Assembly (NCBI RefSeq): GCF_000495475.1
Contig: NZ_ASGZ01000024.1
Span: forward strand, 1-46,212
Length of the DNA: 46,212 nt
Direction of reading: 5' to 3'
Origin: Candidatus Halobonum tyrrellensis G22
GTDB lineage: Archaea > Halobacteriota > Halobacteria > Halobacteriales > Haloferacaceae
Shown here: positions 41,730 to 43,082 of the stretch, piece after piece
Layout: each line of letters starts with the position of its first letter
Position numbering within the stretch: position 1 is the first letter of the stretch
Notes under the pieces: model-generated
The model's input: only the letters and a program-made list of their open reading frames with translations
Databases searched by the model: none
Told to the model about the DNA's origin: nothing
Made by a program: the position numbers and the translations under genes

Positions 41730-42179
41730 TCACGCGGACGCGGCGACCTCCTTCCGCCCCGTCAGCGTCTCGGGGGCCAGCCGGTAGTGGCGGAACTCGA
41801 CCTCCTCTGGCGGCCGGTCGAACACGTCGACCTCGGGGATGTCGACCGCCCACAGCCCCGCGAGGAGCGCCGAGTCGGCGTCCGCCTCGGAAACGTCCCG
41901 CAGGCGGCCGGTCGCGACGGCGCTCCGCCACCGGTCGTCGACCCGGTCGTGGACGACGAACGTGACGGGCCGGTCGACGTACTCGCGCTTGCCGCTCCCC
42001 TCGGGGACGGAGAGTCGGAAGTAGAACGCGCGCGTCTCCGGGTCGTAGCCGTACGACACCGGCACCGCGAACGGCGAGTCCTCCGGGTCGGTGCCGAGCG
42101 ACAACACGCCGGTCCCGCCGCTCCCGAGGAACCCGTCGAGTTCGGTCGTGCTCAGTTGTACCCAGCGGAGTCCTTGCAT
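41730..42179 (-). CDS. Pyridoxamine 5'-phosphate oxidase-like flavin split-barrel protein
   Basis: Protein of 149 residues. GVLSLGTDPEDSPFAVPVSY, GYDPETRAFYFRLSVPEGSG and YVDRPVTFVVHDRV, then RWRSAVATGRLRDV fit the small PNPOx-like FMN-binding split barrel found in many haloarchaea. It probably binds a flavin or F420-like cofactor; the reaction is unknown. The ATG at 42179 has CTTTCGG about 29 nt upstream. It borders the AT-rich islet to the right. Confidence 0.8.
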   Translation of the reverse strand: MQGLRWVQLSTTELDGFLGSGGTGVLSLGTDPEDSPFAVPVSYGYDPETRAFYFRLSVPEGSGKREYVDRPVTFVVHDRVDDRWRSAVATGRLRDVSEADADSALLAGLWAVDIPEVDVFDRPPEEVEFRHYRLAPETLTGRKEVAASA

Positions 42180-42285
42180 ACCGGAGGATTGGGCCGCCGG
42201 GACCGAAAGGAGCCGAGTCGAACCCCAGTTCGTGAGAATATCCGTGATGGAGGATCATATATTAACTATATACGATCGTCACCTA

Positions 42286-42326
42286 ACCTATTAGAGATAT
42301 TTTTATTACCATCTAGACTAATAGGT
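42286..42326. promoter_or_regulatory. 9-bp inverted repeat around the YdjM-like gene TATA box
   Basis: ACCTATTAG (42286-42294) and CTAATAGGT (42318-42326) are exact inverted copies. Between them lies the AT-rich TATTTTTATT element (42299-42308), about 28 nt before the ATG at 42331. A protein bridging the arms would occlude the promoter. Confidence 0.6.
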
Positions 42327-42330
42327 AGCC

Positions 42331-42906
42331 ATGCCTTCGTACGGAAAACACCGCTCAAACGCCCTCCCACTCGCACTACTAGTAGGTTCCATAACACTAG
42401 TCGGCGGAGTCGGAAACGGATTTAACCCGGGAGTAGCGGGTATATTCGCCGGTCTCAATTTCCTACTGGTTCTCGTTGGAGCCGCGCTTCCGGATATTGA
42501 CCATCAATCCTCGATCCCCAGACGAAAGCTGAGTGTTGCAGGTGGGATTGTAGCTACCCTCGCATACGTTACTGGGCTGTTCGCTTCTGCCTCGTACCTT
42601 GACGAACTCTATTCTAATCCCATGGTAGGAGTAGGTTCAATAGTAATAGGGATGTACGTAGGATTGACACTCCTTCCGTCGGTATTGTCAGCTATAGGGT
42701 CGGCTTTCGATTCGTTTTCGACCCATCGTGGCTTCACCCATACGGCCGGATTCGTACTCTTGATGGGGGTATTGGCGTATGGATTCTTCGACTATTCGCT
42801 CGCGGAAGTGATTCCATCTGAAGGAACTGACTCAATGGCACTTCTCGCCGGACTAGCGCTTGCACTGGGAGTAAGGAAGCACATCGTAGATGACGGGATC
42901 TGGTAG
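42331..42906 (+). CDS. YdjM-like metal-dependent membrane hydrolase
   Basis: Protein of 191 residues with several membrane helices (for example ALPLALLVGSITLVGGVG and VAGGIVATLAYVTGLFASAS). GAALPDIDHQSSIPRRKL and SFSTHRGFTHTAGFVLLM hold the D-x-D-H and H-R-G-x-T-H metal motifs of the YdjM/LexA-binding inner-membrane family. Codon use differs sharply from neighbours: ATA, TTG, CTA and AGA-type codons are frequent and the region is visibly AT-rich, suggesting recent acquisition. The ATG at 42331 is the natural leaderless start after the inverted-repeat promoter. It is flanked by tRNA-Pro, a common integration site. Confidence 0.8.
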   Translation: MPSYGKHRSNALPLALLVGSITLVGGVGNGFNPGVAGIFAGLNFLLVLVGAALPDIDHQSSIPRRKLSVAGGIVATLAYVTGLFASASYLDELYSNPMVGVGSIVIGMYVGLTLLPSVLSAIGSAFDSFSTHRGFTHTAGFVLLMGVLAYGFFDYSLAEVIPSEGTDSMALLAGLALALGVRKHIVDDGIW

Positions 42907-43009
42907 ATGAGAGTAGAATAACCGAACGACGAACAATGCGCGGAAGGGTGTCGTGTTCTCTCGAATGTATTCTTGGTTAACCACTTGCGGTAAACAGATG
43001 CGGGAGAAG

Positions 43010-43082
43010 TGGGCCGGCGCGAATTCGAATCGCGGTTACGGCCACCCGAAGGCCGAAGGATACCAAGCTACCCCACCGGCCC
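43010..43082 (-). tRNA. tRNA-Pro (anticodon CGG)
   Basis: A 73-nt cloverleaf reads on the minus strand with acceptor stem GGGCCGG/CCGGCCC, an anticodon arm CGGCC-TTCGGGT-GGCCG giving anticodon CGG (reads CCG), and T arm CGCGA-TTCGAAT-TCGCG. CCA is not encoded and no intron is seen. The discriminator base is A. A CTTTAAC-type box (GTTAAAG on the minus strand at 43108-43114) lies about 29 nt upstream of the 5' end. Confidence 0.92.

Follow-up and report, generated by a model that had tools for sequence, protein, structure and literature searches.

In bacteria, cis-mobilizable elements (CIMEs) are stretches of att-flanked DNA without an integrase of their own. Among haloarchaea, the available part of a report on Haloferax gibbonsii LR2-5 describes integrative elements in tRNA genes, with the 3' part of the tRNA duplicated as terminal repeats, with tRNA remnants by the complete tRNAs, and with a XerC/D integrase beside the complete tRNA (PMC7921747). 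A preference of archaeal att sites for tRNA 3' ends is likewise in print (PMC8371274), as is, for Haloferax volcanii, the gene pair of trmY and tRNA-Pro(CGG) (PMC7237163), both in the accessible parts of these papers. As tRNA-integrated elements and the tRNA 3' end preference are thus already published (PMC7921747 and PMC8371274, in the same parts), the islet that we describe here adds to a known kind and is itself fairly ordinary. The less ordinary thread is the subtype of its one protein, which occurs beside Argonaute and other defence genes, and the finding directs attention to this membrane protein of predicted function.

The window that we analysed, 46,212 nt from Candidatus Halobonum tyrrellensis G22, spans the whole of contig C24, one of the 72 contigs in a draft genome of 3.68 Mb. 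At positions 42227 to 43000, bounds set by change points in GC content, lies an islet of 48.7% GC in a contig of 72%; the 876 other windows of the same length average 72.4% (s.d. 3.1) and fall no lower than 62.9%. The codon use of its gene deviates as well, with a GC3 of 49% against 94.2-95.9% in four neighbouring genes. ATA and CTA (5 of 191 codons each), TTG (4) and GTA (12) are all commoner than in those neighbours, whose 1244 codons include ATA, CTA and GTA once each and TTG five times. The initial annotation had described an AT-rich stretch of about 0.8 kb with aberrant codons, and the composition profile bears this out; that the DNA of the islet is of foreign origin is near certain. The tRNA-Pro(CGG) gene (43009 to 43082; ARAGORN) lies on the minus strand and thereby turns its 3' end towards the islet, which stops about 9 nt short of it; the islet does end at a tRNA 3' end, as had been proposed. 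Beyond the tRNA stands its conserved upstream neighbour, a trmY-like RNA methyltransferase gene (PF04013; 43178 to 43768, minus strand) whose product is nearest to those of genera g5 and g17 (79-85% identity), and across the islet from the tRNA lies a pyridoxamine oxidase-like gene (PF12900; 41730 to 42179, minus strand).

The ORF list of the islet contains no integrase frame, again as annotated, and the five matches to PF00589 in the genome, four of them above the cut-off, are every one on other contigs. The islet resembles a bacterial CIME in lacking an integrase and in having candidate att flanks, but its distal att copy is degenerate and its mobilisation hypothetical. With the LR2-5 elements, as far as the available part of that report describes them, it would share tRNA integration and, if the candidate repeat is an att site, a duplicated tRNA 3' part and a tRNA remnant by the complete tRNA (PMC7921747); it differs in having no integrase, whereas theirs lies beside the complete tRNA, and the elements of the relatives surveyed below differ in turn, their integrase being at the distal end. 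No Rfam match of weight was found in the islet, and in six sampled relatives the sole match at the gathering threshold was one tRNA; some of the picked ORFs are spurious GC-rich frames and support no claim. Elsewhere in the genome, contig C21 holds a region of about 24 kb (from around position 8000 of L232 to around 12000 of L233) at 48-61% GC, with two integrase genes, between flanks of about 64-76% GC, which is another integrated element.

The single gene of the islet (42331 to 42906, plus strand, stop included) appears intact and encodes a YdjM-like protein of 191 residues (PF04307; 42.7 bits, gathering cut-off 29). Both motifs singled out by the initial annotation, DIDH and THRGFTH, are there, the former within PDIDHQSS. 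The protein retains the columns conserved in twelve relatives (H7, D55, D57, R64, H132, R133, G134, H137 and H184), and D55, D57, H132, R133, G134, H137 and H184 align with the residues of the PD.D / HRG.TH motifs. While its Pfam score and shared motifs thus tie it to the YdjM membrane proteins, it is very divergent, reaching only 15 bits against the NCBIfam equivalog PRK11648.1, far below the cut-off of 216. Its conserved H/D residues are those of a predicted metal-dependent hydrolase, a function assigned by family resemblance alone. An AlphaFold2 model from the single sequence has six long helices at low confidence (mean pLDDT 55), and the protein is probably a membrane protein of six helices. 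Upstream, haloarchaeal leaderless mRNAs lead one to expect a TATA-like box at about 27 nt from the ATG, and the box that we read at about this distance 5' of the ATG, TTTTTATTA (42300 to 42308, plus strand), fits a promoter of the leaderless type. A perfect 9-nt inverted repeat, ACCTATTAG / CTAATAGGT (42286 to 42326), is centred on this box and is a possible operator candidate, albeit a weak one, because it was equalled in 46 of 1000 Markov-1 controls.

What can be discerned from the same site in other genomes? Starting from 117 relatives with trmY, we surveyed 113 loci (G084, G097, G056 and G066 were left out) and dropped the 16 in which tRNA-Pro(CGG) was not found, which left 97 relatives, none from the genus of the window. 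The tRNA follows trmY in all 60 of the first-fetched relatives and was found in 97 of the 113 loci overall; the sequence after it varies between genomes. Distal copies of the tRNA end were sought beyond 400 nt downstream, either as its exact last 13 nt or as 20 nt with at most 3 mismatches; they occur in 6 of 97 loci (0.95 Mb) versus 0 of 97 in an upstream and opposite-strand control (1.48 Mb). The relatives with exact distal copies, of 13-20 nt, number seven once Haloferax elongans is added. Four of the seven have an integrase within about 300 nt of the copy, in L278, L293 and L294 at 55-300 nt ahead of it, and the fifth, L292 (a longer refetch of L060), has a C-terminal integrase fragment and an exact repeat of 28 nt, in which 13 nt belong to the tRNA and 15 nt to the trailer. 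Judging from these repeats and the genes beside them, the 3' end of tRNA-Pro(CGG) is an integration site within the family, in keeping with the role that the initial annotation gave to the tRNA end. One tRNA gene would thus have served as a repeated integration site across a haloarchaeal family, leaving integrase-less islets from about 1 kb up.

In Haloferax elongans (L077, L295 and L296), the site is occupied by a 42.7-kb integrative island of about 50% GC, which is closed off at +42.7 kb by an exact 20-nt copy of the tRNA end. The GC content goes up at this point, and an integrase precedes the copy by about 280 nt. Besides a second integrase, the island encodes an N6 methylase/Eco57I-like protein, a ResIII-type helicase, an HSP90-like ATPase and a NurA-domain protein. 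Its first gene, at +831 from the tRNA, is YdjM-like, so that a YdjM-like gene does ride a tRNA-Pro(CGG) element, though it is a distant relative of ours, with 25% identity over the alignment and 35% over the best stretch, and with respect to the tRNA it is turned the other way from the islet gene. Among the 97 relatives, this is the only YdjM-like gene downstream of the tRNA; the conserved synteny that the initial annotation had set against its own proposal was not seen.

Of the direct repeats around the islet, the longest joins a tRNA-proximal att candidate (42998 to 43022, minus strand), in which the final 14 nt of the tRNA are followed by 11 nt of trailer in the register of the L060/L292 repeat, to an att-like copy at the edge opposite the tRNA (42178 to 42202, minus strand) that is identical at 19 of 25 positions (76%). 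The search for an att duplication, proposed as a check, thus yielded a copy at the right place, but no exact one: nowhere else in the window is there an exact copy of the tRNA end. The distal copy is the only non-self match of at least 19/25 to the 25 nt of tRNA end and trailer on either strand of the window, and it is in direct orientation. Compared with random windows of the contig, its chance probability under +1/-1 scoring is 0.0014 (90-nt zone, 2917 draws) or 0.0058 (200-nt zone, 2916 draws); under strict +1/-2 scoring it is 0.13. The 13-nt core recurs elsewhere in the window, in the orientation of the tRNA, at 11/13 three times and at 12/13 once, and the trailer start CTTCTCCCGCA is common to 35 of the 97 relatives. 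As a sequence, the repeat at 42178-42202 is suggestive of a decayed att site.

We consider it reasonably probable that the islet is a reduced remnant of, or a passenger left by, an element integrated at tRNA-Pro(CGG); as it contains no integrase, we file it as such and not as a complete element. This is because its composition and codon use are foreign and its presence lineage-specific, because relatives bear distal copies of the tRNA end with integrases near several of them, as well as, in 43 of 97, copies of the tRNA tail closer by, because the Haloferax elongans element at the same tRNA holds a YdjM-like gene, and because the repeat at 42178-42202 stands in the expected register; the low-GC region of C21 with its two integrases and the conserved residues kept by the protein lend further support. 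An element would have integrated at the 3' end of the tRNA and left horizontally acquired DNA behind. Recombination by the integrases of the family would involve some 13 nt from the 3' end of the tRNA, joined in one relative by 15 nt of trailer, so that the tRNA would be rebuilt on integration and a copy left at the far end of the element, where repeats and integrase genes are observed in the relatives. The element may then have shrunk to about 0.8 kb, or may always have been of that size. The residue would lack an integrase; it would consist of a single gene under a leaderless-type promoter of its own and of a distal att copy, now decayed, that lies immediately short of the adjacent gene. The protein, by its family resemblance, probably hydrolyses a membrane-associated substrate and, in the weakest step of this scenario, might serve as accessory cargo of the element, perhaps in defence or exclusion.

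Of the integrative origin put forward by the initial annotation, foreign DNA at a tRNA 3' end is therefore well supported, while integrase-mediated entry hangs on one degenerate repeat, whose significance depends on the scoring. Against an element there is also the YdjM protein of Haloferax elongans, which is not closely related and whose gene is turned the other way with respect to the tRNA. In none of the 60 relatives checked did the gene on the far side of the islet turn up beside tRNA-Pro(CGG), so the empty site is not alignable. It is possible, if rather unlikely, that homologous or illegitimate recombination placed a horizontally acquired gene in the variable region next to the tRNA 3' end without the help of an integrase or att site, the 25-nt repeat being a product of chance. 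The space behind the tRNA does differ among genomes, and the lack of an integrase, of an exact copy of the tRNA end in the window and of a significant repeat under strict scoring would be expected on such a route, which is harder to reconcile with the best match to tRNA end and trailer in 46 kb falling at the islet edge in direct orientation, and with integrase-bearing, att-flanked islands at the same site in relatives.

The initial annotation had also held proteins with these motifs to be frequent on mobile replicons. This survives in part for the divergent subtype, which is patchy and partly found in mobile or defence settings; YdjM as such is common across the family (PF04307 in 119 of 119 genomes, with 11 copies in that of the window), so only the divergent subtype points to mobility. 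With the islet protein as query, 26 of 391 genomes across the class and 13 of 170 in the family gave matches, own genome counted, the best non-self match having 41% identity and no close relative being found in these genomes. The same query gave one plasmid match and none among phage records and viral contigs, the latter searched with the protein alignment as well, and the islet DNA matched no plasmid; a viral origin was rejected on these grounds, although the low-complexity filter of tblastn blunts searches with so hydrophobic a protein (the self match of a pAgo-linked relative reaches only 100 bits). In a tree of 40 rows, which excluded the window itself (L220) and two loci with no frame chosen (L007 and L224), the islet protein forms an unplaced branch of length 1.99, apart from the nine placed paralogues of its own genome. 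Its closest rows by tree path are proteins linked to plasmids or to defence, foremost three pAgo-PLD-linked ones, to whose subtype it has 29% identity.

The best match lies on a plasmid of Salinirubellus salinus, flanked on one side by a Piwi-domain gene and on the other by one annotated as tyrosyl-DNA phosphodiesterase, which has a weak PLD-like match under the cut-off. A trio of pAgo, YdjM-like and PLD-like genes is seen at L189:9251-14622, L195:7036-12405 and L192:7257-12622, the gene order being kept in three genomes with about 88-94% identity between them. The pairing of pAgo with a PLD protein has been published as the APAP defence system, in a paper whose accessible text contains neither the word YdjM nor the word hydrolase (PMC11442185). 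The haloarchaeal pAgo-AgaP operons described there thus compare with our locus through a relative that sits between the two partners; the window, in contrast, has neither a pAgo nor a PLD-like gene. The neighbours of other relatives include integrases (in L190 and L194), a ParA-like gene and a SIR2-like gene that has a match to a candidate defence family. An integrase-like frame (E 1e-3 or better) is present in the fetched stretch of 6 of 25 YdjM loci, or 5 without L195 (E 7e-4), and absent from that of the majority; a motif search for integrases, which found one, was too insensitive, and the YdjM HMM was built without the L008 row.

With either origin, the gene could be stand-alone cargo for immunity or exclusion, its subtype being that of the YdjM gene flanked by pAgo and the PLD partner. 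We hold this to be doubtful: the nearest tree rows, the conserved trio, the integrases and SIR2-like gene beside other relatives and the restriction-modification-like genes of the Haloferax elongans element favour it, but the protein has 29% identity to that subtype and is unplaced in the tree, PADLOC gave no match, and no Piwi domain match was found in the genome of the window. More speculative still is the idea that, in haloarchaeal defence, the divergent subtype (PDIDHQxS ... THRGFTH) acts as a mobile effector at the membrane, which rides tRNA-Pro(CGG) elements, forms a third component between pAgo and PLD, and in the window makes up a one-gene, att-flanked immune islet. Finally, an ancestral chromosomal gene, merely AT-rich and lost from relatives, is highly improbable despite YdjM-family genes in every family genome searched, since the islet protein sits on a very long branch away from its own paralogues, matches nothing else in the 391 class-wide genomes at more than 41% identity, and differs far from its neighbours in GC3.

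Tail copies of tRNA-Pro(CGG) of at least 14 nt are also present within 400 nt downstream in 43 of 97 relatives (e.g. L070, L094 and L107; control 1 of 97), often 100-175 nt away across hairpin-rich spacers. At first sight these might be att scars, but in L070, L073 and L105 the trailer repeats after the copy as well. Some are therefore tandem repeats of the tail, and none was counted as an island. At the lower end of the seven relatives with distal copies, no integrase was found in the islets of L290 (1.87 kb) and L282 (0.87 kb), the latter being the weakest case because its interior is not AT-rich (62.8% versus 60.9% upstream). The first 874 nt after the tRNA in L282 form a very short islet, flanked by copies of the tRNA end, with one small frame that is possibly antitoxin-like.
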